A program made the translations under genes and the position numbers. Under the pieces are notes generated by a model. The model saw only the letters and a list, made by a program, of their open reading frames with translations. It searched no databases and was not told the DNA's origin. Shown here in pieces: positions 2 to 30,048 of a DNA stretch of 33,407 nucleotides. This DNA is from a virus, in IMG/VR virus record IMGVR_UViG_3300014720_000103, positions 1-33,407 of that record, one strand, 5' to 3'. Within the stretch, counting starts at the first letter, position 1, and each line of letters begins with the position of its first letter.

Positions 2-3000
2 GAGCCTAAAACAGCTCTGCAAAGATTCTTTGACATGCTTAGAAAATTATTAGAGTTCTTTGTTAAAAACAAAAGTTTAATTGAAAACACTTATCAAAAA
101 ATTCAAAGTGGTCACTATGGTAATAGAACTTACCAATCAGGTATTTTTGAAAACAAGGTTGCATTTGAATTAATACCAATACAAACAGTAAGAACAAAAA
201 CTCCAGATGGTAAAAGTCAGTTTGCTAAACATGTTACATTAACAACTTATGAGCAAACTCAATTACTTAATATAATTAATGCACAAATTTTTTCAGATTA
301 CACTGAGAAAGAATCATTTGATGTCAAGTTTCAAAAGGCTGTAGACACACTTTTAGAAAAAGTTATTTCTATTGAAAACCTTGTATCTCAAAATCCATCT
401 AAAAAAGATGAAATCATGAGAAGCAAGTGGGCTGTGTTATTTAACAAATACAGATTTGTTCTTGGAGGAAGAATGAAAAATCTTCCTGTATATGATATTA
501 ACTTAACTGATGACCCAACATTTGATAAGAAGAAAACAAAACTAATGTTTGCTTCACCTGATGGATTGGTAGATAATAGTGATGGTAGTCAATCTTTTGA
601 ACTATTAAAAAAGTTGTCAAAAATATCTTATGAGAAAGCTAATAGCTTGGATATTATTAGAGATGAGCAATCTGATGTTGTAGATTCTGATGAATTGCAA
701 AAAGCAATAAATGGTGAGACTCAAGAACAATACTCAGATGAACAAGCTACTTCTGCACAAGATGAATTAGAAAGTAATGATTTTGATTCTAGTTATGGAC
801 AAGCAAATCCAATTGACTCTTATGTGAGACAAGTAAGAAGATACTTTGCTACAATTAGAAATGATATTGAAGATAAAGAATTAGGTATTAAAATACCTAG
901 AGTTATTGATGGTAACATGGTATTTCCATCCATGTTAAAAACAAGTGCCAATGTTCAACCAAGATTTATTATTCAGACTATTGGAATGATGGCTGAAAAA
1001 ATGATTCAAGATGGTTATGCACAACAAGGTTCTGACATGAAAGCTGTATATGATGATATAGTTTTAACAACTGGAATGGACCCTTTAACAGGAACTCCTA
1101 CAAAAAATCATCAGTTGTTTAATGTTGTTACAGATGCTTTGCATGGTGTTGAGTTAAATTATTTGTTCTTTAATCATAGATTGCCTGAAGAAGCAACTAT
1201 GGAAATGACAGCACAACAAACTATGGAATTGGCTAATAAACAATTAGAATTTAGTTTGATTGACAAAGTTGCTGATACAGATAGTACAACAAAAAGAAAT
1301 CAAATACTCACAGCATTTATAAAATCATTTAAACAAAATGGAAACAAAGAAGAATATAAAAAAGCTGTACAAAAAATATCTACATTAATTGAAAACATTA
1401 TTATCAATCCAGATTTCTTGAATGGCAGAAAAACTCAATCTGTTATACTAAAAGAGATGGCAGCAGAGTTTAATGAAGCATTTGAAGAAATTGGTTTTAA
1501 GTTGCCAAAATCACTTATTGAATTATCATTAGCTACTATTTATACAAAAGAGAATGGTATGTACAATGAGCTTGACAAAGAAGATAATCTTTTCATGACA
1601 TTAAATTCTAACTTCATAAGTCAAAACCAATATCTAGAATTGGATTTCTTCAGAAGCTTAAAAGACATATTAAAAGATGCATATATAACATTGGAAAATG
1701 GTGAGGTAAGAGCTAATAGAAATTTTGCTAAAAGATTAGATGACACTACAAAAAATCCAACTGATAGAAGATTATTATTAATCTTGAAAAAAGCATCTGC
1801 ATATATTTCTAAATATGACCCTACAAGTTTGCCTCCTGTAATTAAAAACGCAGAAGGTAAATCTATCTATCGTTATGCTAAAATAAATCCATTATTAAAT
1901 CTTGCACAAAGATTAAATACAATGACATTGGATGAAGCAATAAGTAATGACCCTTACTATTCTAGAGTAAGAGATTACATGTTAGATAATCCATTTTTAG
2001 CACCATTACTTAAAGATCCAGAATCTGAAGAAGCAAGAATACCAAAACTATTTTTACAGAACTTTAATGTAGCAATGTTTGGAGGTGTTCAGCAGCAGGT
2101 TGGTAAGTTTACAAAAGATGGTAAGACATTTAAAAATATAGATAAGCGTTCAATGTACGCATTACAAATCTTGTCTTTCTTAAATAGAAGAAAAGTTAAT
2201 GATAAGTTTGATAATGAATTGTCTTTATTCTACAGATCTTTCCATCAAAATGAAGCTACACAAACAAACTTTTTAATTCCTGCAATCTACACACCTTTTA
2301 TAAATCCAAATCCTATTGCTGATGATTATAAAATCAGAGAAAATGGTTCTGATAAAATTGTAAATACTTTATTAGATACTGTTAAGCAAGAGTACAATAG
2401 AATACAAAGAGAGTGGTCAACAAGAGTTCAAAGAAAAGAAGACTATGATTCTGGTAAAGGAAATAATAATATTGTAAAATTCAATGGTGAATTAAACCCT
2501 GATGGTAAAACTCTAAATACTGAAAATGATAATTTAAGAGCATATAACTTTAACAAACTTGCTGACTTCTTTTCTATGCCTATAAATGCTGGTCTTAAAG
2601 AACAGCTTATAGCTTTTGCAAAACAAGAAGGTGACTCAAAAGTTAGCTTTGAAGAAATAACAAATACAAAAGAATTAAAAAAAGCATTATCAGAGTATGC
2701 TGATTTAGAGTTTCAAAAATATAAACAAGAGTTAATTAATGAAGGACTAATAGAAGTAAAAGCTATTCCTGATGATAAACTTGACACTAAACCTGTCAAT
2801 GCATTAAAACCTGCAGTAAAAGTTTATTATACTTCTTCATTATTGCCTAAGTATGTTAAAACAGATGTAAGCAAAAATGAAAAAACAGATTTGAGTGCAG
2901 TGTATCCAAACTTACCAGGGTTTGACCATAAGACAACATTTCCTGATATTGTTCCATTAGATCACATGTTGTATGATTATTTCATGAATCATTGGAAAAA

Positions 3001-6000
3001 CTCATTAGAAACAAATGAACTTATGGATGGTGATATTGCTATGAACGTCAAAAACTTTCAAGACTATGTAAAACGTCTTAAAAAGATTGTGGCAAGTGGT
3101 AGTAACTTTAAAGAAGGTTTTCATACTGTAGCATATATAAATACCATAAAAGGATTTGTACATGATAAATATCCTTACCATGGACCTTATTATTCTTTGG
3201 AGCAATTAGAAAATGATTTCAGTGTACCAAATGAAACAATACGTGCTGAGTTGCGTGAAGGATATAAAAAAGCAGAAGCAAATGTTAAAGAACCTATTGA
3301 TGGTAAAACTGTCAAATGGGGTGATATGATGCGTGAGACATTTGATGGTCAAAGTATATCTACATTGTTTCATCAATTGGATATGCATGATTCTATTGGA
3401 AGGGTTGATGACAGAGTGATAGATATTCTTATTGCTAAAAACTATAGAGCTTTGACAGAATCTGAGATTAAGTATTTAAGCAGTAAAAAAGTTGTTAATA
3501 ATGCTAAGAAAACTGTAACAGCTGGTAGAAATATTTACAACAAAAATTCAGAAGATTATACAGATAGATTAGATGTAAGTAGATTGATTATAGAGCCACA
3601 AGAAGGTGAGTCTATGCAAGATGCTACTAACAGAGTATTTGATGAACTTCATGCAGCTTATGCAGAAGTGTATAGTTTGAGAAGAGCATCTCACTACTTG
3701 TCAATACTTGATAATAATCATCCAGATATTGCTAAGTATAAATTACAAATTCAAAAAATATATACTGATAAAATTCATCAATATTATGAAGCATTACCTC
3801 ATAGAAAATTATTACACAATGTTTTAAATTCTATGGAGTATCATCAAATTGATCAACTTTTAGATACAACAGCAACTAAAAATGCTACAAAAGTTCCTAT
3901 TGATATTTTTAAATATGAAAGAGATGAGAATGATTATATAAGATTTGATTTATCATCTACACAAATTCCTAATGAAGATAAATATCTACAGGTAGAAACA
4001 AGTGGTGTAAAAGAAAAAGCAAAACACTCAGTACAATCTAAGTTGTTATTGCCTGCTGATTTATCAGAGAAGATTTTAAAACATGTAGTTGATCAAGCTA
4101 ATGAGAAACTTGGTATAACAAGAACTGAAGCTCAAGATAGAGATATTGCAAGAGTTCAAGAAGACTTGAAAAAATATCAATTATCACTAGGTAAAGCAAC
4201 TAAAGCAAGGTTGGCATATTTTAAAAATATTTTAAGAGAAGGAAAAGACTTTGAGGTTGGTAAAATTTACAAAATGATTAGAAAGAGTTTGGAAGAGCAA
4301 AATGCTCCAACAAATACTTTAAAATATTTTGACCTTAAACCTGATGGTAGTCCTGTATATAGTCCTAACTTAAGTGTAATACGTTCTACTTTAGAATATT
4401 ACTTGTTATCACAATATTCAAATAATGTTACTGATGAAAAAACAGCTGGTGGTAAAAGTTTCCATACATCTTCTGTGGGTCATGATGTATTAGTTGACAC
4501 TGTTACAAACACAGTAATAACTAGTGAAGAAGTATCACAAAATCCTGAAAAATATAATGATGAAACAAGATATAAGTCTAGACCATTAAGTGTTAGTATT
4601 GAAGAACAAGCAGATGGTTCTAAAATTTATTTTACAGAATGTATCATACCAAAACCAATTTTTGAGAACAAGCAACAGGAAGCATTCTACATGGAAAACT
4701 TGATTAAGATGTTTGCTGTACGTATCCCTACTGAGGACAAACGCTCTATGATTGTACTTAAAGTTGTAGATTTTATTGACTCAAGTAAAATGAATAACAT
4801 AATTGTACCTCATTATGTACATATGTTATCAGGTTCTGACTTTGATATTGACTCATTGTTTATGAGAATGAAATCATATTACAAAAATGGTAAAAATGAA
4901 TACAATCTTTTTGGTGATTATAGCAATTATAAAAATGAACAAGCAGGAAAATTTGTAGAGTTTATTCACTTCATGCAAAAACATGATGACTTTGCCCTTG
5001 CTCTAAAAGCTGAAAAGCAAAGATTAATAAATGAAAATACATTTGAACTATCAGATGAAAGTCCAGTATTTGAATTGTTAGATGCAATGAACTATAATCT
5101 TGCTACAGATGTATTAGAGTTTTTTGATAGAAAAGAGTTAAAGTCAAAGTTAAAAGATGAAAAAGAATTTACATCTTACATGATCAGCTTGGCTAAAGAT
5201 GCAAAAGAATTATATATAGAAACTAAACTTGATGCTGAAGCAAATCCAGTAGACAAAGAATTATCAAAACTTAGAAATCAATATGGATATGAGTATGCTG
5301 TAATCAAAGATGTAAAACAAAAATCAATACAAGAAAAAAGAGCATTACGCGAAAGACTTAAAATTGTTGATGCAGCTTATGAATATCAAGCAGCTCTTAA
5401 TGTTTTTGCAGACTTAGGTATTCCTGCAAGCATTGAAGCATTTAATTCTAATCCAGTGTATAATGATATGGTATCAATGAAACATCAGAATGATAATCTT
5501 GATGCTTCTATTGCATTGTTATCTAATGAAGCTGTATTTAATTCATTATACATAAATCAAAGAGCTTCAGTAGAACAGTTTTTAAATATACTTGAAAAAG
5601 GATTTGGATTATCTCTTGAAGATCTTACTCAAAAAGGTAATTTATATACAGCAACCAACATGGTATTATCTAAAGTAGAAAACAGTTCTAGTAAAGATGG
5701 TCTTGGGCGTTCTGCTGTAATGAATAAATTTTTAGCAGTAGCAAGTCAAATTGAAGCAACACTACTTGAGCAAAACACAATTTGGAAATTTAGAAATGAA
5801 AAAGGAGAGTTAAAAACTTATGATAAATTTGGTCAAATTAATGAGCAAGGTGATAGAGTAATTTCTTTAATTGGAAATATTTTAGGGATGTTTGCAGATG
5901 CTGCTAAAGATCCAATTCCATCTGCGTTACAATTGAATGAAGTTAATATTACAACAACTCTTGCAATGTTAGGAATTGGTTTAAAACCAGAATTTGCATT

Positions 6001-8203
6001 AGGTTTTAATTTTTTACCAAAAATAAGAGAGGCATCTAAAAAGGTACAACAAGCAAACTTTGCTATTTCTGAAGACATTTATGATGACTACGCTTTCTTT
6101 GACAAAGCTATTGGAGATGAAATAAACAACATGCTATCTAATAGTACCATACTTGCTGAACTTTCAAATCTTGGAGTTGTAGAACCTACTTCTACAAATT
6201 ACCAACCTAAAATTAAAGGACAAAATGTTGTTATGCAATTTGAACCTAAAAGTCTTAAAGGAAAAGATTTAGATACATTAATACCTTCTGAAATTGGATT
6301 TAAAATTACAAATGCAAAAGGTGTGGAATTAACAGATGCTCAAGCAGAAGCTTTGTTAATGATGTATTATTGGGAACAATCAAAACAAACTTGGTCTATA
6401 AACAGAGTAGCTAATATGACTAACTTGTTTAAAAGATTAAATCCTTCTATGGCAGCGTTTGATAGACAGCGTGATGGTATATCAAGAATTAAATCTGGTG
6501 AATTGTTTACAGAAGAATCTGTAGATAGATTATTCAAATCACAAGATTCAATATGGCAATATTTATCAGAAGGTTTAGATGATGCAAATGAACAATTTTC
6601 AAAAATACTTTTAGAGAGAAGTGACTTTTTTCAAAATGTTACTGGTATGTATTCTAAGTATTTTAAAGAACCTAAAGTGTTTGCCAATGTTGTGACAAGT
6701 TATTTAGGTTTGAGCAGATTTGTAAAAACATATCCAGGTTCAAGAAGTGTTGACAATGAATACATGCAAGACATCATTGATCAAGATGATATGATTTTAA
6801 AAGAAAGCTTTACTCCTGAGTATTGGTTTACTAATTCATTAGCAGCAGAACTTGAAGAAATGCAAAACAAGTATCCTGAAAATGAATTTTTAAAATTGTT
6901 AAAACCACAAGAGTCTGATAAAACTGCAGTTGTTAATTTTGAAGGTAAAGATTATACTACACCTGAAAGATTTTTGCAAATCATGTCAAGAGCTAAAATT
7001 ACTGGTGAATTTCAAAATACTATTACTGATAGTATCTATGAGCTTTATAACAAAGATAATGCTGAAGATAGATTGTTTATCAAGAAATTATTTTACCATG
7101 AGTTAGTAAGAACTGGTATGTTACCTAAAATGGGTTCATTCTTTCAGTTTATGCCTGCAGAACTAGTATTACCTATTTCTCAAAACATAGATGCATTCAT
7201 TGATTACATGCGAAATGCTGATAAAGATGCTAGAAAAAACATTGTAGGGTTTATGAAAGATTATTTGGGAACAGATGATGAAACAGAAACATTCAAGTTT
7301 TTTGATGAATTATTTAATCAAATAGCGTATGCTGCAGCAAGTGAAAAAGGTAACAGCAAAATACCAACTTACAAATACTATGGTGAAAAAAAGAAATACC
7401 CATTGTCAATTAAAAAAATTAGTTCAACTAATACATTTAGAACTAACATAAATATTTACAACTATTTGGAAGAAGGGAATAATAATCCTTCACTAGCTGA
7501 CATGATTCAAGCTAGATCAAAACTTATCACTGCTTTCTATAAGATGTTTAATTCTAAATTTGATGAGTCTAAAAATATTGATGAAGCTAATTCAATTAAT
7601 CTTGAAAGTTTGTTAAAAGATGAGTTTACATTAAATTTAAATGATGATTTAGCTAAACCAACAAAATCATTATCAAAAGTGTTCAAAGTTAAATATGACA
7701 AAGATGCAGAAGCATTTGAATTTCCAACTTTAATTAGAGTTGCAGGAAAAGTATATGTATTACAATCTACTGACATATCTTCTGCAGAAGGTATGAGTTC
7801 AGGTGAGGCTTTGATAAAATCATTTGCTGGTGAATCTATTTACACAAACTTGGGTGTAGTTGCAAATTACAAAGCAATTCCTGAAATTTACTCTTCTGAC
7901 AAATTTAGTGCACTTGCATTTACTGCAGAACAAGCAGATAGATACAAATCTTATACTCAAAAAGAACAAAAAATTAAATTTGTAAAACCTGGAAGTACAA
8001 CTGAAACAGAAACTGTAACAGCACCCAAAGTTGAAAAAACTACTCAAGTTCCTGTAAGTGCTGTTAAACCAAAAAGTGTGGGACCATCAGAAGATATCAT
8101 GGGAGCAAATGAGACTATGATGAGTGCAGATTTCTTTAAAAATATGGAAGGATTTGATTGGACAAAAGTGGATAATGATTCAGAAGATCCATTAGATTGT
8201 TAA
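2..8203 (+). CDS. Giant crAss-like phage RNA polymerase (5' end beyond window)
   Basis: This is a giant single-polypeptide DNA-dependent RNA polymerase. The reading frame is open back to base 2 with no stop and no leader before the first visible ATG at 35, so the true start lies left of the window. Residues below count from that ATG (2722 aa visible). The key signature is D1602-F-D1604-I-D1606 in the context LSGSDFDIDSLF. It is preceded by the R1563-I-P-T segment, a pair typical of the catalytic double-psi barrel of crAss-like polymerases such as phi14:2 gp66. An acidic linker lies near 215-260 and a low-complexity T/V/K tail ends the protein. In characterised relatives this enzyme is packaged, injected and transcribes early genes; that role is inferred here. 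The visible N-terminus looks like the inside of a longer polyvalent protein. Stop TAA; 18 nt precede the next gene. Confidence 0.85.
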   Translation, partial: EPKTALQRFFDMLRKLLEFFVKNKSLIENTYQKIQSGHYGNRTYQSGIFENKVAFELIPIQTVRTKTPDGKSQFAKHVTLTTYEQTQLLNIINAQIFSDYTEKESFDVKFQKAVDTLLEKVISIENLVSQNPSKKDEIMRSKWAVLFNKYRFVLGGRMKNLPVYDINLTDDPTFDKKKTKLMFASPDGLVDNSDGSQSFELLKKLSKISYEKANSLDIIRDEQSDVVDSDELQKAINGETQEQYSDEQATSAQDELESNDFDSSYGQANPIDSYVRQVRRYFATIRNDIEDKELGIKIPRVIDGNMVFPSMLKTSANVQPRFIIQTIGMMAEKMIQDGYAQQGSDMKAVYDDIVLTTGMDPLTGTPTKNHQLFNVVTDALHGVELNYLFFNHRLPEEATMEMTAQQTMELANKQLEFSLIDKVADTDSTTKRNQILTAFIKSFKQNGNKEEYKKAVQKISTLIENIIINPDFLNGRKTQSVILKEMAAEFNEAFEEIGFKLPKSLIELSLATIYTKENGMYNELDKEDNLFMTLNSNFISQNQYLELDFFRSLKDILKDAYITLENGEVRANRNFAKRLDDTTKNPTDRRLLLILKKASAYISKYDPTSLPPVIKNAEGKSIYRYAKINPLLNLAQRLNTMTLDEAISNDPYYSRVRDYMLDNPFLAPLLKDPESEEARIPKLFLQNFNVAMFGGVQQQVGKFTKDGKTFKNIDKRSMYALQILSFLNRRKVNDKFDNELSLFYRSFHQNEATQTNFLIPAIYTPFINPNPIADDYKIRENGSDKIVNTLLDTVKQEYNRIQREWSTRVQRKEDYDSGKGNNNIVKFNGELNPDGKTLNTENDNLRAYNFNKLADFFSMPINAGLKEQLIAFAKQEGDSKVSFEEITNTKELKKALSEYADLEFQKYKQELINEGLIEVKAIPDDKLDTKPVNALKPAVKVYYTSSLLPKYVKTDVSKNEKTDLSAVYPNLPGFDHKTTFPDIVPLDHMLYDYFMNHWKNSLETNELMDGDIAMNVKNFQDYVKRLKKIVASGSNFKEGFHTVAYINTIKGFVHDKYPYHGPYYSLEQLENDFSVPNETIRAELREGYKKAEANVKEPIDGKTVKWGDMMRETFDGQSISTLFHQLDMHDSIGRVDDRVIDILIAKNYRALTESEIKYLSSKKVVNNAKKTVTAGRNIYNKNSEDYTDRLDVSRLIIEPQEGESMQDATNRVFDELHAAYAEVYSLRRASHYLSILDNNHPDIAKYKLQIQKIYTDKIHQYYEALPHRKLLHNVLNSMEYHQIDQLLDTTATKNATKVPIDIFKYERDENDYIRFDLSSTQIPNEDKYLQVETSGVKEKAKHSVQSKLLLPADLSEKILKHVVDQANEKLGITRTEAQDRDIARVQEDLKKYQLSLGKATKARLAYFKNILREGKDFEVGKIYKMIRKSLEEQNAPTNTLKYFDLKPDGSPVYSPNLSVIRSTLEYYLLSQYSNNVTDEKTAGGKSFHTSSVGHDVLVDTVTNTVITSEEVSQNPEKYNDETRYKSRPLSVSIEEQADGSKIYFTECIIPKPIFENKQQEAFYMENLIKMFAVRIPTEDKRSMIVLKVVDFIDSSKMNNIIVPHYVHMLSGSDFDIDSLFMRMKSYYKNGKNEYNLFGDYSNYKNEQAGKFVEFIHFMQKHDDFALALKAEKQRLINENTFELSDESPVFELLDAMNYNLATDVLEFFDRKELKSKLKDEKEFTSYMISLAKDAKELYIETKLDAEANPVDKELSKLRNQYGYEYAVIKDVKQKSIQEKRALRERLKIVDAAYEYQAALNVFADLGIPASIEAFNSNPVYNDMVSMKHQNDNLDASIALLSNEAVFNSLYINQRASVEQFLNILEKGFGLSLEDLTQKGNLYTATNMVLSKVENSSSKDGLGRSAVMNKFLAVASQIEATLLEQNTIWKFRNEKGELKTYDKFGQINEQGDRVISLIGNILGMFADAAKDPIPSALQLNEVNITTTLAMLGIGLKPEFALGFNFLPKIREASKKVQQANFAISEDIYDDYAFFDKAIGDEINNMLSNSTILAELSNLGVVEPTSTNYQPKIKGQNVVMQFEPKSLKGKDLDTLIPSEIGFKITNAKGVELTDAQAEALLMMYYWEQSKQTWSINRVANMTNLFKRLNPSMAAFDRQRDGISRIKSGELFTEESVDRLFKSQDSIWQYLSEGLDDANEQFSKILLERSDFFQNVTGMYSKYFKEPKVFANVVTSYLGLSRFVKTYPGSRSVDNEYMQDIIDQDDMILKESFTPEYWFTNSLAAELEEMQNKYPENEFLKLLKPQESDKTAVVNFEGKDYTTPERFLQIMSRAKITGEFQNTITDSIYELYNKDNAEDRLFIKKLFYHELVRTGMLPKMGSFFQFMPAELVLPISQNIDAFIDYMRNADKDARKNIVGFMKDYLGTDDETETFKFFDELFNQIAYAAASEKGNSKIPTYKYYGEKKKYPLSIKKISSTNTFRTNINIYNYLEEGNNNPSLADMIQARSKLITAFYKMFNSKFDESKNIDEANSINLESLLKDEFTLNLNDDLAKPTKSLSKVFKVKYDKDAEAFEFPTLIRVAGKVYVLQSTDISSAEGMSSGEALIKSFAGESIYTNLGVVANYKAIPEIYSSDKFSALAFTAEQADRYKSYTQKEQKIKFVKPGSTTETETVTAPKVEKTTQVPVSAVKPKSVGPSEDIMGANETMMSADFFKNMEGFDWTKVDNDSEDPLDC

Positions 8204-8221: not shown

Positions 8222-10219
8222 ATGGCAAAGAGTTGTGAATTTAAAACAGCAGAAGCTTCTACAAAAGCTTGGTTAAGAACAAATGAAATGATAGATAATT
8301 ACCTCAACATTCGTGAAGGAATGTTGGGGGCTTTTCGCGAACAGAATACCAAGTGGTCAAAAAAAGCATTTCAAAAATATAATGGTGCAGGTATAAAACC
8401 TTATGATAGATTATTTTATGAAACAGATAATGGTAGAAAGGTAATACCAAATACTGAAATGTTTCAAAGAATAGATGCTGCAAAAGGAGTTTTTTACAAA
8501 GAGAATTTAAAATATGCCAATGATATAAAAACCACATCTAACTTAAGCACAAATATAAAACCAGGAGTAGCAGAACTATTTGAATCTAATGAAAGTTTTG
8601 CTAATGCTGTGTATGAAGCTGCTGAGTTTACGGGTGCGAATATAAATATTCCTAATTATGTTGTAGTAACAAGACCTTATTCTGATGAAAATATAGGCTC
8701 TAAAGGTAGAACTGGTAATATGGTGGAATTTACAAGTACTGAAGAAGACTTGTATAGACAAAATATGGGTGGATATTTAATTCAAACCAATGATGAAGGT
8801 AGATTATATATTACAGATATTGAAAAATTTAACGAGGATTCTACTTTTAACGGTTTAGGTACAGTTGCTTATGTAGATTTTTATGAAAATTATAAACATA
8901 AATCTCAAGGGTTGACAACAGACAAATCTTTAACTTCTGATGGAATTAAAGTTCTTGAACGTCTTGAAAAAATAGGATTAGTATATAAAACAGACGCAGT
9001 TTTAGTAGATGATACACAAAAACATCGTATATTAGGTACTACGTTATATAAATATAATAAACCCTTATATGAGTTTAATTTTAATTGGTCAAGAAATCAA
9101 ATAACCTCACAACAAAAACAACAAGCTCAACAACTTTATAGCTCCTACTTACAAACTACTAATAATCCTACTATTGAAGGGTTTAAACAATGGAACAATA
9201 GACAACAACAAATAAATGAATTATTTGAATCTAATCCTGAATTAGCTAATGCTGTGTATGAAGCTGCTGGGTTTAAAATAACTAATAAAGAATTTATTCC
9301 TAATTTTAATTATTATAAAAATGTTTTACCTATAATATTAAAAACAAAAGAGAAAGAAATATTAAAGTTATTACATAATAAAGGTAGGTATTTAAATGAT
9401 ATTGACTTAAAATTTATAAAAGTAAGTGAACGAGATTATTTAGAGAAAGGATGGTTTGATTTAAAAAAAACTATAAATGCTGCCAATAGTATTTCAATAG
9501 GATTTAGACTTACTGATAAAAATGGAAGAACATCAGGTTTGGGATTAAGATTATTACAAGATGGTAGTATAGCAGAAAATGATTTAGTATTTGGAAAAAT
9601 AAATCTACTTCCAAACATTGATATAAAAGAAGTTGATGAGTCTAACTCACATAAAACAATAGAATACTTTATTAATGGTGTAGAAATAGGGAAAGCAAAT
9701 CTTATTAAATCAGAAGAAGATGATAGTGATATTGATTATATAGAAGATTGGAACATTAAATCAGAGTACCAATCTGCTAATTTAGGTTATGTAGTAAGAA
9801 AAGCTATTCAAGATAAATACCCTACTATAAAATTATCTTCTTCTGCTACAGATAAATCTAAATATTTATATGAAAAAGCTATAGCTAATCAAATAACCCC
9901 ACAACAAAAAGCAACTGCTCAACAACTATACTCTCAATATCTTGATACTATATTTCCTGATAGTAAAGTGAAGGATATTGTTTATCATGCTACTTTTAAA
10001 AACTTTTTAAATAACACATCTAAGGAATTTTCAAGTGAATTTGTAGATGATTTGTACAATCTTAACCTAACTCCTGATGTTATTAAGTATCTTTATAGTG
10101 AAAATGGTTCTAGACATAATCTTAATGATTATGGTTTTTTATTAAACAGGCTTGTAAATACACTTAGAAGCCAAGGTAGAACTAATAAAGAAGTACTTGA
10201 TGATATAAAATGTTTGTAA
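8222..10219 (+). CDS. Mosaic 665-aa polyvalent-type protein with duplicated modules, GNAT-like segments and ART-like remnant
   Basis: No single named family is recognised. The protein is built from repeated modules. ELFESN-x-NAVYEAA-F occurs at residues 118-136 and 333-351. A Q-rich linker, QIT-QQK-AQQLYS-YL, occurs near 293 and 557. The segment after the first ELFESN module (about 140-285) and that after the second (about 355-550) each look GNAT-like: LTTDKSLTSDGIKVLERL near 236-250, and an IGKANLI strand at 489 followed by EYQSANLGYVVRKAI and LYEKAI at 549. VYHAT at 587 resembles the first strand of ADP-ribosyltransferase domains in polyvalent phage proteins, but the remaining ART motifs are not seen. 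It lies between the RNA polymerase and the nuclease giant, with only 1 nt before the next start. The A/T-rich leader AAAATTATTAATT precedes ATG. It is probably a co-injected virion protein; the enzymatic calls are tentative. Confidence 0.7.
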   Translation: MAKSCEFKTAEASTKAWLRTNEMIDNYLNIREGMLGAFREQNTKWSKKAFQKYNGAGIKPYDRLFYETDNGRKVIPNTEMFQRIDAAKGVFYKENLKYANDIKTTSNLSTNIKPGVAELFESNESFANAVYEAAEFTGANINIPNYVVVTRPYSDENIGSKGRTGNMVEFTSTEEDLYRQNMGGYLIQTNDEGRLYITDIEKFNEDSTFNGLGTVAYVDFYENYKHKSQGLTTDKSLTSDGIKVLERLEKIGLVYKTDAVLVDDTQKHRILGTTLYKYNKPLYEFNFNWSRNQITSQQKQQAQQLYSSYLQTTNNPTIEGFKQWNNRQQQINELFESNPELANAVYEAAGFKITNKEFIPNFNYYKNVLPIILKTKEKEILKLLHNKGRYLNDIDLKFIKVSERDYLEKGWFDLKKTINAANSISIGFRLTDKNGRTSGLGLRLLQDGSIAENDLVFGKINLLPNIDIKEVDESNSHKTIEYFINGVEIGKANLIKSEEDDSDIDYIEDWNIKSEYQSANLGYVVRKAIQDKYPTIKLSSSATDKSKYLYEKAIANQITPQQKATAQQLYSQYLDTIFPDSKVKDIVYHATFKNFLNNTSKEFSSEFVDDLYNLNLTPDVIKYLYSENGSRHNLNDYGFLLNRLVNTLRSQGRTNKEVLDDIKCL

Positions 10220-10220
10220 T

Positions 10221-13200
10221 ATGAGTCCATGTCCAAATAAAAATACTCCTGAGTGGAAAGCTTTAGTTGAAGCATATAATGAAGCAGACGCAATGACTGC
10301 TTTTGTAATGAATAACCATACAATACCTTCTCTTACAGAAGCTGCATACATCTTTAAAAACTTAAGTGTAAAAGAAAAGGATGAAATATTATCATCATCA
10401 TCTGATGAGTTTAAATTAAAAAGAGCAAAAATGCAAAACGCAGTAATTGAAAAAGTTTCTTTTACTGCAAACCCAGCTCAACAAGCAACACTCAAAAAGA
10501 TACAAGCAATGAATGAATCTTATCAAAAGTTTCTTCAAGATAATATTGATGCAATCAATAGTGGAAAACCAGGAACAAAAACAAAAAGTGTATCTGCATT
10601 TACAGGTACATCAGAGTTTAAAGGAGATCCATCAGAGTATGAAGCATATAAACTATTTGGAACTTTTGTGCATGAAGTATTAGAGTTGTCACAAACCAAA
10701 GCTATTGTTGAAAACAAAACAATAACAGAAGTTTACACAAAAGAATATTTTGATGAAATGTATGAAAATTACATTAAGAAAAATCCTTTCACAATAGAAA
10801 ACTTATCTAAAGATGAGTTATATGCAATGGCTCAAGGTATTATTTCTACAGTAGCTCAGCCAGGTAAAGCTGGATTTAAAGTATTACCTGAGATTACAGT
10901 GTTTGGTAAAAGTAGTGTAGGAACTCCTATTGTAGGAAGACTTGATTTATTGTTAGTAGACCCTTTAGGTAGAGTACAAATATTTGACTTTAAAACAAAA
11001 AAGTTAAAAAGACTTTATCAATGGAATAGCTTGACAAATCAAAGTGAAGTTAACATTGATGCTGCATTGTATGAAATGGCAATGAAAGAAAATCAAATTG
11101 CTAACTTATCAGCTACAGGTATATCTTTTAGACAGATTGGTGCACGTTCAGTTTATGACAACTGGATGGTACAATTAGGTGTTTATGAAAACATGCTAAT
11201 TCAAAATGGAATTGACATGATAGAAGAACAAAATAAAACTATTGTTTCTTTATTGTACCAGGTTGATGAAAATACAAAAGAATTTAAAGGTGCTGTAGAG
11301 TATATTTTTAATGGTGAAAACTATTATGATTTAGTAAGAAACACTTACTATGGTCAAAATGGTGCAACAATGAGTAGTGTTGATGCTACAAATCAGCACG
11401 TTTTAAGATTGAGACAAGCTGTAGAAAAAGAAGTTCCTACAGGAAAAGTAATTGAAGAAGAAGCAGTTGCAAGTAAATCTATTGATGAAGTTTATGATGT
11501 TACACCAACAGAACAAAACATTAAAAACTTTATTGCAAATATTGAAAAGCTTATAGATGGGCAATTGCAATCAATTACAGAAGACATTGAAAATGCTAAT
11601 TCAAAAACAGAAGAAAAGCGTGATGAAGATTATATCAGAATGCTTAGAAAAAGACGTGATACTATCAATGAATATAAAACAATTGTAGATAAGTTAAAAA
11701 CATCTAATCCTTCAGATTTAATGTATGCAACAAACTTTGCTAACTCATTAAGTATTGCTGAAGATGATTTTAATACATTATTAAAAGTATCAAACAGTGC
11801 TGCAGCAGTATTTACTGATGAAAATTCAACAGAAGATCAAAGAACTAAAGCATTAAAACAAGCAACAGAAGCATATGATAAAGGTATAATGCTTAAGCAT
11901 ATTGTTGATGTACTTGAAGAGATTGTAGATGAAGCTGCTTCTATGCCAGACTCAACTATTACAGCTGATAGCCCTGTCAGAAAAAAGTTATCAGATATAA
12001 GAATGGCATCTAACATTATCACATCTAACTTTAAAGATAAAGTAGGTATGAACCATGCTATTTGGATGTTACAACAATTAGATGAAGAAACTGTAAGCAG
12101 AGTATCAGAACAACAAAAAGATGTTGCTAAAACAACATTAAATGTTATTAATAAAGAATTATACCAATTAAAAACAGATCCTAAATTAGGTGTATATACT
12201 AAATTAAAATATACTTTATTTTCACTCACTGACAAAGATTTTAAAGAAAAATTTAAAACTGCAATGGGTAAAGGTGGTGATATGGCATTAGCAAGAATTG
12301 AAAAACTTGAACGTAAAAAACTACAATTAGAGTATCTTATAAAAGGGTATGACGTATCAGAAGAATCTTTAAAAACATATATCAATGGTATAACAGATCC
12401 TGCAGCTCCAATTTATCCAGGTATGCAAAACCCACTAGAAACTGATTCAATGTTATCAGGTTGGATGATGGATTCTACAATTGCTTCTGCTAGTAACTCA
12501 GATAGATTACTTGCAACAGCCACCATGTTTTTGAAAAATCAAAAAATGCAAGGTGAGCATAATGTTATGAAGGACCCCAAACTTAAAAAACTTATTAATA
12601 ATGTAAACTCCTTAGTAGAGTCTGGTGCATTTACTCTTGAAGAATTAAATAAATTCATATCAGAGTGGAGAACCATAGAGTATGTTGATTCAAAAGGAGA
12701 GCGTCAAGAGAAAAGAGTTTTTGATATTGCAAAGCCATACAGTGAAGAATATGAAAGAACCTATAGAAATTATAGTATTAGATTAAAAGAGCTTACTAGA
12801 GAAATCTTTGACCTAAAAGCTGATTACAATAGAAAGTTTAAGACTGATCAAAAAGATGAAGCTTATAGAGCATTAGAAGAAAAGAGAAATGAGCGTGACC
12901 AATTTAACAATGAATACATAGAATGGATATTAGAAAATGCCAGTCTACCATATTCTGACAAGTTTTATGAATTGCAACTTAAACTACCCAATGAAATCAG
13001 AGAGCAAATACAAAAGTTATATCTAGAACAAGAAACAATAATGTTTGATGTTGGTAGAGGTAATGAAGCATTGTTAGAAGAAGAAGATTTTGTTAGACTG
13101 CAAGAAATTGATATAGAAATCAAAAAGCTAAGAATAAAAGCACAGGAAAATAATGCTGATTATACTCAATACCTTGAACAATTAAATGATTTGTATGAGT

Positions 13201-16200
13201 ATGGTTTAAATGATGATGCCTACTTGCGTGCAGAAAATGATGCTAAGATTAGATTTTCTGATGATCCTGAAAGATTAAATGTATGGTACAAAACTAACTC
13301 AGTGACCAGACCTAAATCAGAATGGTATGAAAAGACAAATGAACTTTATGAAGAAAGAGCACAAATTTATGGTAACAGTAATGATGAAATAAAAGATTTA
13401 GCTGATAGAAAAAGAAAAATCATGTTGCCTTATAAGCAAAATGGTAGATTTAATCCTAAATTTTTATCATTTGAAGAAATACAAGAGTTAGATCAAATTG
13501 AAGCTAGAATAGAAGACATCATAGAAGAAAGTTCTAGATTATCTAAAGGTCAAAATAAACTTGATCCTGCAGATAGAAAACGTGCACAAGAAATCAGAGA
13601 TGAATTATCAAGATTAGTTTCTGGTCAAATTAACCCATTGTATCAAGAAGAGTTTGACCAAAGATACAGAGTTCTCAAAAAAGAATTTGAAATGTTTATT
13701 GAGGCTGACTCTAAATATAGTGCTATAAATTCTGGAGTTTCTTCACTTACAGAAGATGAAAAAAACCAAGCAAAAGATGAATGGATATCTGCTACTATGT
13801 CTTTCATGAGAGCAGAAAGAGACTTTGAGTCTTGGTATAATAATAATCATTTAAATAAATATCAATTATTAGCTACTGGTCAAGATAATGTAGAAAGTAG
13901 ACAACCAAAATCATTCAATTTTGAAAAACTACCTAACAGCTCTGTAGCAGCTGATTATATGGAAACTGTACCAAATCCTAAGTATTATAAAACAAGAGCA
14001 CTTAGAATTGGAAACTGGTCATTAGATGGAAACAGATTGACAAACAAAGAAATAAAAGAACTTAAAAATGATCCACAGCAAGTTGAAGATTTACTTTTAG
14101 CTGGTAGATTAATAACTTTACCTGGTGCAATTAATGAAGACTTCTTGAAAAGTCCTGATGGTATACCAATGCCTAAAGAAGTTAAAAAATCAACTGATGG
14201 ACATTACTATATAGACCCTAATGTAAGACCTTCTCAGAACATCAATAATAAGTTTGTTGAATTGATGAACAATCCAAAAATGTTTGAGTTGTATAATAAT
14301 CTTACAAGTTTGTTCTTTGACTTGCAAAAGAAAATGGATGGAAGAAAGATGGGTTATCAAGTTCCAGGTTTTGCAGCTTCTGTAGTAGAGAGTATGAAAG
14401 AACTTGGTGGGGCAAAAGGATTAAATAAGCAATACAAAGCGTGGTTAGATAAAAACCTTAAAGCAGAAAGTGAGCAAGATAAAGCTTCTAATGTATATGG
14501 TAACTCAGCAGCAAAAGTTAGAATGAGATTCTCTAATCAATTGTCTGAAGAAATACAAACTACAGATGCATTAGGTGCTGTTGTAAAATGGGCCACTGAA
14601 GCTCACATGAGTATTGCTATGCAAGAGGTTGCTCCAAAATCAGAAGCATTCATAAAATTCCTTGAGCTACAAGCTGAAAAACTTAAAACAGATAGTTTGA
14701 CAGATACTTATATAACAAATGAGAAAGGTGAAAAAGTAAAAGTTGATTTATCTAAAAAAGTAAAAGAGGTAGAAAATGTAATTGATATTCTTAAATATGA
14801 AAACAAGAAATACTTGTATGGTATATTAGAAGAAGAACAAAACCTTGCAGTAAAGAAAAAAGTTGATGCATTTTTCAAATATACAAGTTTCATACGTATA
14901 GGATTTGATGTTGCCAACCAGGTAAAAAACTTTACATCTGGTAATGTTCAAGCATGGTTAGCAGCTGGTGGTTCTGACAGTGACCATTATACTAAAAAAG
15001 ACTGGCTCTTTGCAAAAGGTAAAGTATATGGACAACAAGGATTTTTAGCAAATTATTTAAAAGACTGGGGTAAAGTTGATGATTTAGCTGATACTACATT
15101 GCTTTACAGAATGATGAATCCATTGCAGAAGGATCAATTAAAATATTACTCTGATATTTTAGGAGGTAAAGGAAGAAGATTAAAAGAAAAATTCTCACAT
15201 GTAGCAGAACTTGGTTATATTCTACAAGACAAAGGTGATACTGAAATTGGTGTTACAGTTATGTATGCTGTAATGAATAAAAATAAGTTTGAACTTATTG
15301 AAAGCATTGACCCAGCAACAGGTGAAAAAGTTTTTAAAAGAGATGCTAATGGTGATGTAATAATGGTTCCTGCACATGAATCTTATGTGCAAGATGGTGA
15401 AGGAAATTTAGTAAGACGCAATGATGTAAATTATACTGAAACTGATGAAGCACGTTTAAGAAACATCATTTACTCAGAAATGAGAAGAGCTCAAGGTAAC
15501 TATGCTACAACAGATCAAACAAAATTTGAAAGTAGAATCTTAGGTAAAATGGTATTCTTCTTTAGAAAATTCTTAGTTCCACAATTTCTAAACAGATTTG
15601 GATACTTGAGAACAAACTGGGAAGGTGCTGAAGTTACAATGGGATACTGGAGAGCTACACGCAGAGCTATAAAAATGTTTGGTATGGGTAACACTGCCAA
15701 AGAATTTTTTATTGGTTCTAAAACAATGTCAAAAATTGGTATGTCAGGTGGTACAGAAGCATATGAAGTAATTGACCCTAACACTGGTGAAGTTGTAGAA
15801 AAAGAAAAAATTGGTGATTTTTACTCTAAAAGAATACGTCACGCCAGACAAGATGCAATTATGATGACACTTCTCACAATTTTGTCAATGGCATTATTAT
15901 CTTATGTGAAAAGAAAAGATGATGATGATGAAGAAATTGGATTCTTAGAAGGTAATGCTATACGTGTTATATGGGGTACAAAAGCAGAAACAGTATCAAT
16001 GTTTCCTATAGGAGAAGGTTCAAATGAATATGTAAAAAACTTTACAACTGCTATTCCATTTATGCGTGAAGCATCATCATTAATCAAATTTGGAAACCAT
16101 GCTGTAAAATATGGTATTGCAATGACTATGAATGGTGGTGAAGAACCAGATGCAGGATATGATTCTGAATTTTATCAAGAAGTTTGGAAAGATGCTTTCT

Positions 16201-16337
16201 ACACAAGAAAGTATGGAGCATATGAAAAAGGTGATGCTAAATTTACAAAAGACTTTGTTGATTTAACAGGTATAAAAAACTTTAGAGATTTAGTTACTCC
16301 ACAATACAGAATTGATGTGTTAAAAGGTAAACAATAA
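10221..16337 (+). CDS. Giant virion-type protein with N-terminal PD-(D/E)XK (RecB/Cas4-like) nuclease domain
   Basis: This 2038-aa protein carries a RecB-family nuclease signature near the N-terminus: H151 in GTFVHEVLEL, D242 in VGRLDLLLVD, and D256-F-K258 in the FDFKTKK strand. These match the His, Asp and D-x-K metal-site pattern. About 1,500 residues that follow are rich in charged helices and coiled coil (roughly 430-1200), with no catalytic motif I recognise. A hydrophobic stretch at about 1880-1899 (MMTLLTILSMALLSYV) is followed by an acidic cluster and could cross or insert into a membrane. In crAss-like phages large proteins next to the RNA polymerase are virion cargo. I infer that this one is ejected with the genome and that the nuclease acts on host DNA or genome processing. 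It starts 1 nt after the 665-aa gene, indicating tight co-expression. Stop TAA. Confidence 0.78.
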   Translation: MSPCPNKNTPEWKALVEAYNEADAMTAFVMNNHTIPSLTEAAYIFKNLSVKEKDEILSSSSDEFKLKRAKMQNAVIEKVSFTANPAQQATLKKIQAMNESYQKFLQDNIDAINSGKPGTKTKSVSAFTGTSEFKGDPSEYEAYKLFGTFVHEVLELSQTKAIVENKTITEVYTKEYFDEMYENYIKKNPFTIENLSKDELYAMAQGIISTVAQPGKAGFKVLPEITVFGKSSVGTPIVGRLDLLLVDPLGRVQIFDFKTKKLKRLYQWNSLTNQSEVNIDAALYEMAMKENQIANLSATGISFRQIGARSVYDNWMVQLGVYENMLIQNGIDMIEEQNKTIVSLLYQVDENTKEFKGAVEYIFNGENYYDLVRNTYYGQNGATMSSVDATNQHVLRLRQAVEKEVPTGKVIEEEAVASKSIDEVYDVTPTEQNIKNFIANIEKLIDGQLQSITEDIENANSKTEEKRDEDYIRMLRKRRDTINEYKTIVDKLKTSNPSDLMYATNFANSLSIAEDDFNTLLKVSNSAAAVFTDENSTEDQRTKALKQATEAYDKGIMLKHIVDVLEEIVDEAASMPDSTITADSPVRKKLSDIRMASNIITSNFKDKVGMNHAIWMLQQLDEETVSRVSEQQKDVAKTTLNVINKELYQLKTDPKLGVYTKLKYTLFSLTDKDFKEKFKTAMGKGGDMALARIEKLERKKLQLEYLIKGYDVSEESLKTYINGITDPAAPIYPGMQNPLETDSMLSGWMMDSTIASASNSDRLLATATMFLKNQKMQGEHNVMKDPKLKKLINNVNSLVESGAFTLEELNKFISEWRTIEYVDSKGERQEKRVFDIAKPYSEEYERTYRNYSIRLKELTREIFDLKADYNRKFKTDQKDEAYRALEEKRNERDQFNNEYIEWILENASLPYSDKFYELQLKLPNEIREQIQKLYLEQETIMFDVGRGNEALLEEEDFVRLQEIDIEIKKLRIKAQENNADYTQYLEQLNDLYEYGLNDDAYLRAENDAKIRFSDDPERLNVWYKTNSVTRPKSEWYEKTNELYEERAQIYGNSNDEIKDLADRKRKIMLPYKQNGRFNPKFLSFEEIQELDQIEARIEDIIEESSRLSKGQNKLDPADRKRAQEIRDELSRLVSGQINPLYQEEFDQRYRVLKKEFEMFIEADSKYSAINSGVSSLTEDEKNQAKDEWISATMSFMRAERDFESWYNNNHLNKYQLLATGQDNVESRQPKSFNFEKLPNSSVAADYMETVPNPKYYKTRALRIGNWSLDGNRLTNKEIKELKNDPQQVEDLLLAGRLITLPGAINEDFLKSPDGIPMPKEVKKSTDGHYYIDPNVRPSQNINNKFVELMNNPKMFELYNNLTSLFFDLQKKMDGRKMGYQVPGFAASVVESMKELGGAKGLNKQYKAWLDKNLKAESEQDKASNVYGNSAAKVRMRFSNQLSEEIQTTDALGAVVKWATEAHMSIAMQEVAPKSEAFIKFLELQAEKLKTDSLTDTYITNEKGEKVKVDLSKKVKEVENVIDILKYENKKYLYGILEEEQNLAVKKKVDAFFKYTSFIRIGFDVANQVKNFTSGNVQAWLAAGGSDSDHYTKKDWLFAKGKVYGQQGFLANYLKDWGKVDDLADTTLLYRMMNPLQKDQLKYYSDILGGKGRRLKEKFSHVAELGYILQDKGDTEIGVTVMYAVMNKNKFELIESIDPATGEKVFKRDANGDVIMVPAHESYVQDGEGNLVRRNDVNYTETDEARLRNIIYSEMRRAQGNYATTDQTKFESRILGKMVFFFRKFLVPQFLNRFGYLRTNWEGAEVTMGYWRATRRAIKMFGMGNTAKEFFIGSKTMSKIGMSGGTEAYEVIDPNTGEVVEKEKIGDFYSKRIRHARQDAIMMTLLTILSMALLSYVKRKDDDDEEIGFLEGNAIRVIWGTKAETVSMFPIGEGSNEYVKNFTTAIPFMREASSLIKFGNHAVKYGIAMTMNGGEEPDAGYDSEFYQEVWKDAFYTRKYGAYEKGDAKFTKDFVDLTGIKNFRDLVTPQYRIDVLKGKQ

Positions 16338-16390: not shown

Positions 16391-17020
16391 ATGGCAACTA
16401 AAATATTCAGAAAAAATAACTATATAGTATTGTTAGATGAAGCTAATGATATATATTTTGAAGAGCATTACTCAAATGTAATTGTCAAAAAGTTGTATGC
16501 TACAGATACAGAATACACTGTATCTTTTGTGAGAGAGAATGGTTTGATACAAAATTTTTATAAATTAAAATTTGCAGACATAAGACAAGAAAACAATACA
16601 GTTTATGCTTCTGTTACAGCTTGGGAAGAATGGTATACTTCAAATACAGGTTTTAACAATTCTGGAAGTGTTTCTTCTGATGTAAATGCTAACTTAAAAG
16701 TAGGTGGATCAAATGTTTCTAATACTAATCCTGTACCTGTAAACATAATTACAGGTGGTGGTACTACTCAAACAGCTAGTGTAGAAGTATATAGAGTAAC
16801 AGGAACAACGCCTCAAGCTGTTGTTGCAAATGCTTTAAGTATCAGTGTTCAAAATTTAGGAAACTATAACGTAAATGTTACTACTGATGTTTCTACAGGT
16901 GTTGCAATTGATGCTGGTGTAAGTGTCACCTGGGATGCACCTACTGGATATAAATTACCTGCATATAGTTTTGTAAACTCAAATGCTGCAGGAGTATTTT
17001 TATTAACTGTTGTAAGATAA
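16391..17020 (+). CDS. Putative tail appendage / baseplate-associated beta-rich protein
   Basis: This 209-aa protein has two parts. Residues 1-85 form a charged domain (MATKIFRKNNYIVLLDEAND...). From about 95 onward comes a Ser/Thr/Asn/Val-rich beta-strand region with alternating polar and hydrophobic residues (SVEVYRVTGTTPQAVV, VQNLGNYNVNV), typical of phage surface or fibre-connecting proteins. No enzyme motif is seen. It begins the tail-fibre cluster, 6 nt ahead of the 735-aa fibre, and has an A/T-rich leader (AAAATTAAAATA) directly before ATG. The role as an adaptor or short fibre at the tail tip is inferred from position and composition. Its family is not recognised. Confidence 0.55.
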   Translation: MATKIFRKNNYIVLLDEANDIYFEEHYSNVIVKKLYATDTEYTVSFVRENGLIQNFYKLKFADIRQENNTVYASVTAWEEWYTSNTGFNNSGSVSSDVNANLKVGGSNVSNTNPVPVNIITGGGTTQTASVEVYRVTGTTPQAVVANALSISVQNLGNYNVNVTTDVSTGVAIDAGVSVTWDAPTGYKLPAYSFVNSNAAGVFLLTVVR

Positions 17021-17026
17021 TAGGCC

Positions 17027-19234
17027 ATGACTAAAATAAAAAGAAATTTACCTAATAATCAATACCTTGCAGCTATTTTAGCTAATTCTCCTTCTAGTAC
17101 AAATGTGTTTGCTACTATGGCTGACTTATCTGGTTTAGGTGGAGGAACTACAAGTGTTGCTGCAAGAGTTCAACATGATGTAAAATATGCTGAACAAATA
17201 AACATTGGACAAGCTGTTTATGTTTCTAGTGCAGATGGTACAAACATGATTGTTTCTAAAGCTAGTTATGGTTCAGAAGCTACATCTAGTAAAACAATGG
17301 GTCTTGTTACTCAAACTGGTAATATAAATACTCAAGCATCAGTTATAACTGAAGGTTTGCTTGCAGGACTTGATACTACAGCAGCTACCATTGGAGATCC
17401 TGTGTGGCTTGGTTCTACTGGAAATTTATTATTTGGACTTGCAAACAAACCTGTTGCACCAAATCATTTAGTATTTATTGGTATTGTAACTAGAGTAAAT
17501 GCTAATAATGGTGAAATATTTGTAAAAGTACAGAATGGTTTTGAAGTAAGTGAATTACATGATGTATCTGTTGCAACAAGAGCTAACAATACAGTCTTAG
17601 GATATAATACTAGCACATCATTGCATGAATTTAAATCAATAACTCAATGGTTAGGTTATACTCCTGCAAATGAAACTGTAACTATTAGTACTACAGGGCC
17701 CCTTTCAGGTGGTGGAAATCTTTCTGCAAATAGAACTTTGTCTATCTCAAAAGCTGATTCAGGAACTGATGGTTATCTTGCAAGCACTGATTGGTCAATA
17801 TTCAATAATAAAGCAAATGCTTCTGTTACTATTAGTACATCTTCACCTCTTGCAGGAGGAGGAGATTTATCAGCTAATAGAACAATATCTATTCCACAAG
17901 CAACAGCATCAGTAAATGGTTATTTATCATCAGCAGACTGGACTACTTTTAATAACAAACAAACTGCGTTAGGATTTACTCCTGTTAATAAAACTGGTGA
18001 TACTCTTACTGGTAATTTGTTTGCATTAAACCTGTCTGGTACAAATAGTGGAGATGAAACAACAGCAACTATAAAAACTAAACTAGGAGCTGCTACTTCT
18101 ACTTTAGATGGATATTTGCTTGCATCTGATTGGGTTATATTCAATGCTAAACAAAATGCAATTGGATATACTCCAGCTGACAAAGCAGGTGACACCTTTA
18201 CTGGTAATATTACTGCAACAAATTTATCTGGAACCAATACAGGTGATGAAACCACTACTACTATTCAAAATAAATTAGGTACAGCTTCTGCATCTACTAG
18301 TGGATATTTAATATCAACTGACTGGAATACTTTCAATAATAAAGTTTCTACTTCAATATCTTTATCTACAACTTCTCCATTACAAGGTGGTGGTGATTTA
18401 AGCAGCAATAGAACTCTTAGTATATTACAAGCAGGTTCAGCACAAGATGGTTATTTATCTAGTACACACTGGAATACATTCAATAATAAACAAAATTCAA
18501 TAAATTTAACTACAACAGGATCTAGTGGAGCTGCAACATTTGATGGTTCAACATTAAATATACCACAATACTCTGCTGGTGCTTCTGAAAAATCAGGTTC
18601 TGTATTATCTACAGCAAGAAGTTTACCTTTTAGAATGGGAACTAATATAACAACTTACCGTTCAGCTTCTGGTGTAGGTAGTACAACAGTTTCTTCTACT
18701 ACATTTGCAGGTGAGTCAACTCATTTTTTTCCTATATCTCTTAAAGAAGGTTCTCCTGTAAAAGCAGCAGCATTTAGAGTAAATTCAGCAGGCTCTGGAG
18801 GACTTGGCACAGCAGAAATAGAAATTGGCATTTATAATGCAACAACAAATGCAAATGGAGAATTGATACCTGGAACACTAGAAGTTCAATTTGGTAAAGT
18901 TTCTGTATTAACAACAGGTGTTAAAGAAGCTGTTTTGGCTAATGCTCATACATTGGGTGCAACTATAGATAATATTTATTGGATTGCTTTTAGAAGTTAC
19001 TCTACTAACTCAACATCATTAAACATTTATTCTTCAGCTGATCTTCTTTCATCTTGGATTGGTATATCATCTTCATTAGCCCTTGTTAAGTTAGGCATGT
19101 TTGTAGCAACAACTCCATACACAGCATCAACAGGATTACCAGCAAGTTTACCAGCAACAGGTGGTGTAGGTTTTACACAAAGTAATACTGTAGCAGGTTA
19201 TGTAAGTAACCAATTATTAATAGGACTTAGATAA
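17027..19234 (+). CDS. Tail fibre with tandem repeats
   Basis: This 735-aa protein is a likely tail or receptor-binding fibre. Residues 1-200 form an attachment-type domain that includes a capsid-decoration-like stretch (GDPVWLGSTGNLLFG). From about 217 to 515 there are degenerate tandem repeats of three kinds. Type A, PL-GGG-LS-NRT-SI, occurs three times. Type B, GYL-S-DW-FNNK, occurs five times. Type C, GFTP-NKTGDT-TGN followed by LSGTNSGDETT, occurs twice. Such repeats are common in fibres of phages and prophages of Bacteroidota and usually build a trimeric shaft. The C-terminal 200 residues (TARSLPFRMGTNI... to VSNQLLIGLR) look like a globular beta-rich tip. The trimeric structure and host-range role are inferred. 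Repeats make this gene prone to recombination. Stop TAA; 10 nt before the next start. Confidence 0.75.
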   Translation: MTKIKRNLPNNQYLAAILANSPSSTNVFATMADLSGLGGGTTSVAARVQHDVKYAEQINIGQAVYVSSADGTNMIVSKASYGSEATSSKTMGLVTQTGNINTQASVITEGLLAGLDTTAATIGDPVWLGSTGNLLFGLANKPVAPNHLVFIGIVTRVNANNGEIFVKVQNGFEVSELHDVSVATRANNTVLGYNTSTSLHEFKSITQWLGYTPANETVTISTTGPLSGGGNLSANRTLSISKADSGTDGYLASTDWSIFNNKANASVTISTSSPLAGGGDLSANRTISIPQATASVNGYLSSADWTTFNNKQTALGFTPVNKTGDTLTGNLFALNLSGTNSGDETTATIKTKLGAATSTLDGYLLASDWVIFNAKQNAIGYTPADKAGDTFTGNITATNLSGTNTGDETTTTIQNKLGTASASTSGYLISTDWNTFNNKVSTSISLSTTSPLQGGGDLSSNRTLSILQAGSAQDGYLSSTHWNTFNNKQNSINLTTTGSSGAATFDGSTLNIPQYSAGASEKSGSVLSTARSLPFRMGTNITTYRSASGVGSTTVSSTTFAGESTHFFPISLKEGSPVKAAAFRVNSAGSGGLGTAEIEIGIYNATTNANGELIPGTLEVQFGKVSVLTTGVKEAVLANAHTLGATIDNIYWIAFRSYSTNSTSLNIYSSADLLSSWIGISSSLALVKLGMFVATTPYTASTGLPASLPATGGVGFTQSNTVAGYVSNQLLIGLR

Positions 19235-19244
19235 AATTAAAATT

Positions 19245-19613: not shown

Positions 19614-19614
19614 A

Positions 19615-30047: not shown

Positions 30048-30048
30048 T
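30039..30048. repeat. Right-hand gene-junction copy of 10-bp direct repeat flanking the GIY-YIG gene
   Basis: ACTACTCATT (AATGAGTAGT on the coding strand) contains the TAG stop of the GIY-YIG gene and the ATG of the downstream exonuclease. An identical copy lies at 30499-30508, so the two bracket exactly one gene. Confidence 0.75.

Follow-up and report, generated by a model that had tools for sequence, protein, structure and literature searches.

Polyvalent proteins are multidomain phage proteins carrying ART, GNAT, peptidase and ParB-type domains; some of them are fused to virion RNA polymerases, and early delivery and host modification have been proposed as their role (Iyer et al., 2017, PMC5512222). 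In crassviruses, the proteins associated with the RNA polymerase were identified as virion cargo by mass spectrometry (PMC10172136), which is likewise supported by the notes of the phi14:2 record. Moreover, exchange of protein fragments between phages is ongoing (Smug et al., 2023, PMC10684548).

The window analyzed here, i.e., the whole stretch of 33,407 nt of virus DNA (positions 1 to 33,407 of IMG/VR record IMGVR_UViG_3300014720_000103), encodes a 665-aa protein (8222..10219, plus strand, frame open throughout) with short connector sequences, A, B and C, framing two slots. We favor, at a probability of about 0.7, the view that a crAss-like phage here encodes an additional cargo protein with effector domains in exchangeable cassettes; the protein most likely travels in the virion and is ejected together with the virion RNA polymerase (vRNAP). 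Like the polyvalent proteins (PMC5512222), under which name such domain mixtures and vRNAP fusions are already known, it combines several effector-type domains in one polypeptide, namely two GNAT-like inserts and an ART stump. What differs here is a pair of slots, each set between constant connectors and open to alternative occupants, in carriers that are crAss-like phages; the terms "linker" and "shuffl" are absent from the main text of PMC5512222. In contrast to the cases of Smug et al. (PMC10684548, whose main text lacks "crass", "linker" and "effector"), the exchange borders are defined connector sequences. The known crassvirus virion cargo (crAss001 gp47, gp49 and gp50; phi14:2 g065-g067) shares with the window the vRNAP class, the gene neighborhood and the chain-end cysteines, but the 665-aa protein is an additional chain. 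A single query with a consensus A-B-ART-C cassette found nothing among the INPHARED phages, so that no cultured example is known. In polymorphic toxin systems, effector cassettes are exchanged behind a constant part. The present case appears to differ from these systems (PMC3482391): connectors flank the variable domain at either end, and a protein of the phage cargo type carries it.

The literature searched, in which subscription journals are poorly covered, yielded no description of the framed two-slot grammar, of exchange bounded by connectors or of the terminal cysteines. If the proposed reading is true, crAss-like phages own a defined route to swap host-modifying enzymes within their first-injected proteins, and the effector repertoire of this very abundant phage group becomes searchable by connector sequence. 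The cysteine pattern offers a directly testable idea for the ordered ejection of giant cargo proteins.

The locus around the virion RNA polymerase

The 665-aa gene lies on the same strand as both of its large neighbors. Upstream is the vRNAP megaprotein (35..8203, plus strand), recognized by tblastn to annotated Crassvirales RNAP catalytic subunits and by alignment of its DFDID motif near residue 1602 (about nt 4838-4852); this motif and the relation to crAss-like RNAP place the window in the Crassvirales. Downstream follows a 2038-aa cargo-type protein (10221..16337, plus strand) with a PD-(D/E)XK domain (Pfam PF12705, E 1.5e-7). Of 100 cassette records, 86 contained one vRNAP by a 30-row profile of the DFDID region. 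All 79 cassette ORFs counted in the vRNAP-bearing records were on the vRNAP strand at -10.2 to +8.6 kb from it; the interval from +0.5 to +7 kb contained 58, against ~4.5 under uniform placement (two records were handled as circular in this count).

As a whole, the 665-aa protein had no PHROG match, no PDB sequence match, Pfam matches that were all sub-threshold and no tblastn match in INPHARED, and its one relative in IMG/VR was a contig end. A second contig confirms the gene only for about residues 523-665. Its parts were more informative. The N-terminal head (residues 1-93, 8222..8500, plus strand) matched other phages by blastp at 52% (L061), 45% (L132) and 48% (L141) identity, with E from 1e-23 to 3e-20; the matches in L061 and L132 are cassette proteins with other domains, and that in L141 is an ORF. 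The C-terminal tail (10034..10216, plus strand), ending IKCL, has homologs at the C-terminus of the vRNAP ORFs of L004, L012, L124 and L125 (31-36% identity, E ~2e-5 to 3e-5). L124 and L125 have the same locus without any cassette, in L004 and L012 the cassettes are fused into the vRNAP ORF ahead of the same tail, and in the window they form a separate ORF that retains it. On these alignments, the tail of the 665-aa protein is the displaced vRNAP C-terminus of its relatives.

The first-pass annotation, made from the sequence alone, had suggested an injected effector beside the RNA polymerase. Adjacency to the vRNAP stood, and injection is plausible, being strengthened by the position and by the cysteine pattern (see below). 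From these two features, we infer delivery of the 665-aa protein into the host, where its domains would act on host proteins. The protein would be a polyvalent-type effector carrier packed in the virion and then ejected together with the vRNAP. Its terminal cysteines suggest a place in a cargo chain coupled head to tail, where it would be an inserted wagon with the vRNAP on one side and the 2038-aa protein on the other.

Connectors, slots and their occupants

Degenerate DNA patterns for FESN[P/A]ELAN, QYLDTIFPD, LGSKQDIEGFK and ITPQQKQQA retrieved 38, 47, 60 and 40 IMG/VR stretches, respectively, in overlapping scans. Reading these stretches in frame showed the same connectors in 100+ metagenomic viral loci. 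The connector peptides are A, ELFESNPELAN; B, ITPQQKQQAQQLYSQYLDTIFPDSKVKDIVYHGT; and C, LGSKQDIEGFKEFV, and the frames showed one order: A, slot 1, B, slot 2, C. Among 116 A units followed by B or C, slot 1 was empty in 52, with exactly 6 residues of the IGTPEQ type from A to YSQYL, and filled in 64, mostly over a length of 100-270 aa. Its occupants overall were GNATs, P-loop kinases, metallopeptidases and ParB-, NADAR- and ASCH-like domains. The GNAT of L048 matched Pfam Acetyltransf_1 at E 2.4e-5, the NADAR-like (E 0.008) and ParB-like (E 0.03) matches were both weak, and the P-loop, HExxH and ASCH-like domains were assigned from motif alone. The spacing from B to C was mostly 80-160 aa. 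Slot 2 is usually occupied by ART-PolyVal, 72 of 90 slot-2 sequences falling into one similarity group; in L039, the domain matched PF18760 at E 5e-7, just below the curated cut-off. L029 has instead a kinase in this slot (AAA_33, zeta-like, E 1.3e-17). In eight proteins (window unit 1, L008, L028, L126, L136, L140, L141 and L151), slot 2 was empty, B being joined to C by a short joint of the TTNNPT or GKQD type. The comparison of module content among related phages, proposed in the first-pass annotation, found constant connectors and slots that are empty or filled by varied domains.

A scan for the A pattern in bacterial genomes returned 11 stretches. Four of them, L146, L147, L151 and L152, resemble genuine cassettes; their contigs were binned as bacterial MAGs but may belong to phages. 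A tandem pair of connector units was also seen in proteins of L104, L017, L027 and L072. The N-flank domain ahead of A in L137 is DUF4326-like by eye, and similar N-flank ends were present in L013, L031 and L032.

The 665-aa protein comprises two such units, all parts of which are on the plus strand. Unit 1 consists of connector A (IKPGVAELFESNESFANAVYEAAEF, 8555..8629), a GNAT-like insert in slot 1 (8630..9097) and connector B joined directly to C (QITSQQKQQAQQLYSSYLQTTNNPTIEGFKQW, 9098..9193). Unit 2 begins with connector A (INELFESNPELANAVYEAAGF, 9212..9274), followed in slot 1 by an extra segment (9275..9616), for which no relative was found, and then by a GNAT-like part (9617..9886), and its connector B (9890..9994) ends in VYHAT. 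In terms of the grammar, slot 1 is filled twice by GNAT-like domains, and slot 2 is empty in unit 1 and holds an ART stump in unit 2.

The GNAT-like character of the inserts, already suspected from their sequence, was borne out by profile and predicted fold. A profile built from eight slot-1 inserts of other phages only (A10) matched 19 PDB chains at E<=0.1. Almost all of these are acetyltransferases by name, and the others are presumably GNAT-like as well. The same profile matched the window inserts at P=3.6e-4 (GNAT1, residues about 137-292) and 1e-4 (GNAT2, residues about 466-555), while two unrelated slot inserts gave P 0.41 and 0.94. The structure prediction suggested earlier gave AF2 models of moderate confidence (pLDDT 73; pTM 0.61 for GNAT1 and 0.55 for GNAT2), GNAT1 with a bbbb-a-a-bb topology. 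GNAT structures dominated the Foldseek matches of both models, albeit with weak E-values, none passing 0.001 and the top GNAT1 matches at 1e-3 and above. The models are not independent of the profile evidence, since their alignment rows were GNAT inserts of other phages; alignment A3, used for folding GNAT1, includes GNAT2 as a misaligned row. GNAT2 was also 41% identical to the insert of L073 over 41 aa. Compared with motif A (Q/R-x-x-G-x-G/A), the acetyl-CoA loop of GNAT1 (TFNGLG) keeps G-x-G and has lost Q/R, and that of GNAT2 (EYQSANLG) keeps Q and the last G, the middle G being replaced by N. Model, Foldseek and profile therefore support the assignment of both inserts as GNAT-like domains with degenerate acetyl-CoA motifs, resembling GNAT acetyltransferases in fold and profile but not in their incomplete motif A, which makes their activity uncertain.

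The truncated ART domain noticed at first reading was supported by comparison with relatives. Connector B of the relatives normally leads into an ART-PolyVal domain (PF18760 in L039, see above), the usual occupant of slot 2. Of the full ART core, with its H, Y and D positions, the 665-aa protein keeps the first strand alone, VYHAT (residues 587-591, nt 9980-9994). The comparison supports slot 2 of the second unit as the stump of a lost ART domain.

The degenerate acetyl-CoA motifs, the tail homologous to the vRNAP C-terminus and the fixed position beside the vRNAP would also suit a part of the virion RNA polymerase assembly that has a structural role or assists transcription, and whose GNAT-like inserts are non-catalytic and serve for binding or spacing. 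This reading is unlikely, given that the slots of relatives hold unrelated enzymes, some with intact motifs (the AAA_33, Acetyltransf_1 and ART-PolyVal matches at 1.3e-17, 2.4e-5 and 5e-7), and that L124 and L125 exist without any cassette.

Domain exchange at the connectors

Pairs of phages with a common insert indicate how the effector cassettes might be exchanged. The slot-1 domain is common to L066 and L139 at 90% and to L061 and L111 at 84% amino acid identity, and no similarity was detectable in slot 2 or either flank of these pairs. By blastn, the matching stretches of pairs with common inserts had 75-95% identity; homology set in <=~50 nt from the LFESN codons and, where visible, ended near YSQYL (some of the loci compared were cut by contig ends). 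The connectors themselves were conserved at the codon level, with identical codons at identical residues in a share of 0.78-0.85; two vRNAP motifs of these loci gave 0.54-0.62, and pooled codon usage predicts 0.48-0.57. The DNA conservation of the connectors fell sharply at their edges. Since the search patterns admit all codons per residue, the search should not have created this conservation. We infer from these DNA comparisons that the domains move by recombination within the connectors, which would serve as joints for the exchange of effector domains. The connector peptides, helical in the predicted model of the window, would in addition act as helical stalks.

Conserved peptides of predicted helical structure might also mean that the connectors are kept for protein function only, as stalks or cleavage sites, and that exchange proceeds by ordinary illegitimate recombination. 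Against this stand the codon conservation, higher than in the catalytic vRNAP motifs of these loci, and the position of the exchange borders at the connectors in the pairs examined, so that an explanation by protein function without recombination joints is improbable.

The DNA repeats of the 665-aa gene were as first described: 25 identical letters at 8600-8624 and 9245-9269, and 23 of 24 matching at 9095-9118 and 9887-9910. Exact 25-mer pairs are expected within this ORF by chance at ~3e-7, and the repeats could be extended to 79 nt at 77% and 44 nt at 84% identity. What had been read into them, a recent tandem duplication of the whole module inside the gene, is very improbable and was rejected. 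The identical 25 bp and the double occurrence of both A and B within one ORF would fit a duplication, but only the short connectors recur. The DNA of the two inserts is not alike above chance, their longest common word being 11 nt (~10.6 by chance). Each connector copy of the window is as near or nearer to the connectors of other phages than to its sister copy, connector A copy 2 matching L034 and L008 at 44 of 45 nt, and such connectors occur in about a hundred viral contigs.

Because Delta and Zeta crAss-like phages often carry inteins and introns (PMC7886860), the cassette might be considered a mobile element of an intein- or intron-like kind. This is hardly credible: the reading frames continue across the inserts, the inserts are of several types, and in the Pfam scans they matched enzyme families, with no Hint or homing-endonuclease family among the matches of the proteins scanned.

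Terminal cysteines of the cargo chains

The only cysteines of the 665-aa protein are residues 5 (nt 8234-8236) and 664 (nt 10211-10213). The vRNAP of the window has cysteines at residue 1536 and at its last residue, 2722 (nt 8198-8200), and the 2038-aa protein has a single one, residue 4 (nt 10230-10232). The core of the cassette and vRNAP ORFs (197 kaa) contains 0.14 cysteine per 1000 aa vs 2.07 in other ORFs. The slot-1 inserts, 5755 aa in total, lack cysteine and slot 2 has ~0.09 per 1000 aa, so that the composition of the slots appears to be virion-type. Low cysteine may, however, be general to virion proteins, as the proteins at 16391-20400, probably tail proteins, are also free of it. 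The special feature is the terminal cysteines rather than the low content: cysteine was present on both sides in 75 of 103 gene junctions touching cassette or vRNAP ORFs vs 3 of 93 other junctions.

The pattern extends to known genomes. In 11 Crassvirales (L154-L164; Steigviridae, Intestiviridae and Suoliviridae) with 13 vRNAP-cargo junctions, the upstream chain had a cysteine in its last residues at all 13, and the downstream chain had one in its first five annotated residues at 11; the exceptions were crAss002 (position 35) and cr110_1 (position 17), in which the annotated starts may be too early. The terminal pair is missing in fused cargo chains, several of which hold a few internal cysteines. 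In crAss001, the pattern implies the order gp47-gp50-gp49, although gp47 is on the opposite strand, which argues against a cause in the DNA of gene junctions. The cysteines that would pair are gp47 C2339 with gp50 C5 and gp50 C2404 with gp49 C5 in crAss001, and g067 C1797 with g066 C3 and g066 C2179 with g065 C3 in phi14:2. A naive combined probability for 14 proteins was ~1e-31, a value that ignores relatedness and was computed after the pattern was seen.

The terminal cysteines suggest a disulfide coupling of the injected proteins, head to tail. Tentatively, at slightly less than even odds, the Crassvirales might eject the vRNAP and its partners as one such disulfide-joined train, which would be reduced apart in the host cytoplasm. 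The C-terminal cysteine of one chain would bond the cysteine near the N-terminus of the next, reduction would release the chains, and phages could add an effector wagon, such as the 665-aa protein, via a coupler cysteine at each end. Bayfield et al. (PMC10172136) described disulfides in tail assembly and ejection with partial unfolding; the term "cystein" is absent from the main text of that paper.

Two minor observations concern other parts of the window. A large protein at 17027-19234 with repeated GGGDLSANRTISI / DWTTFNNK segments is tail-fiber-like by eye, and a 155-aa ORF on the minus strand (30040-30507) is GIY-YIG nuclease-like by eye.
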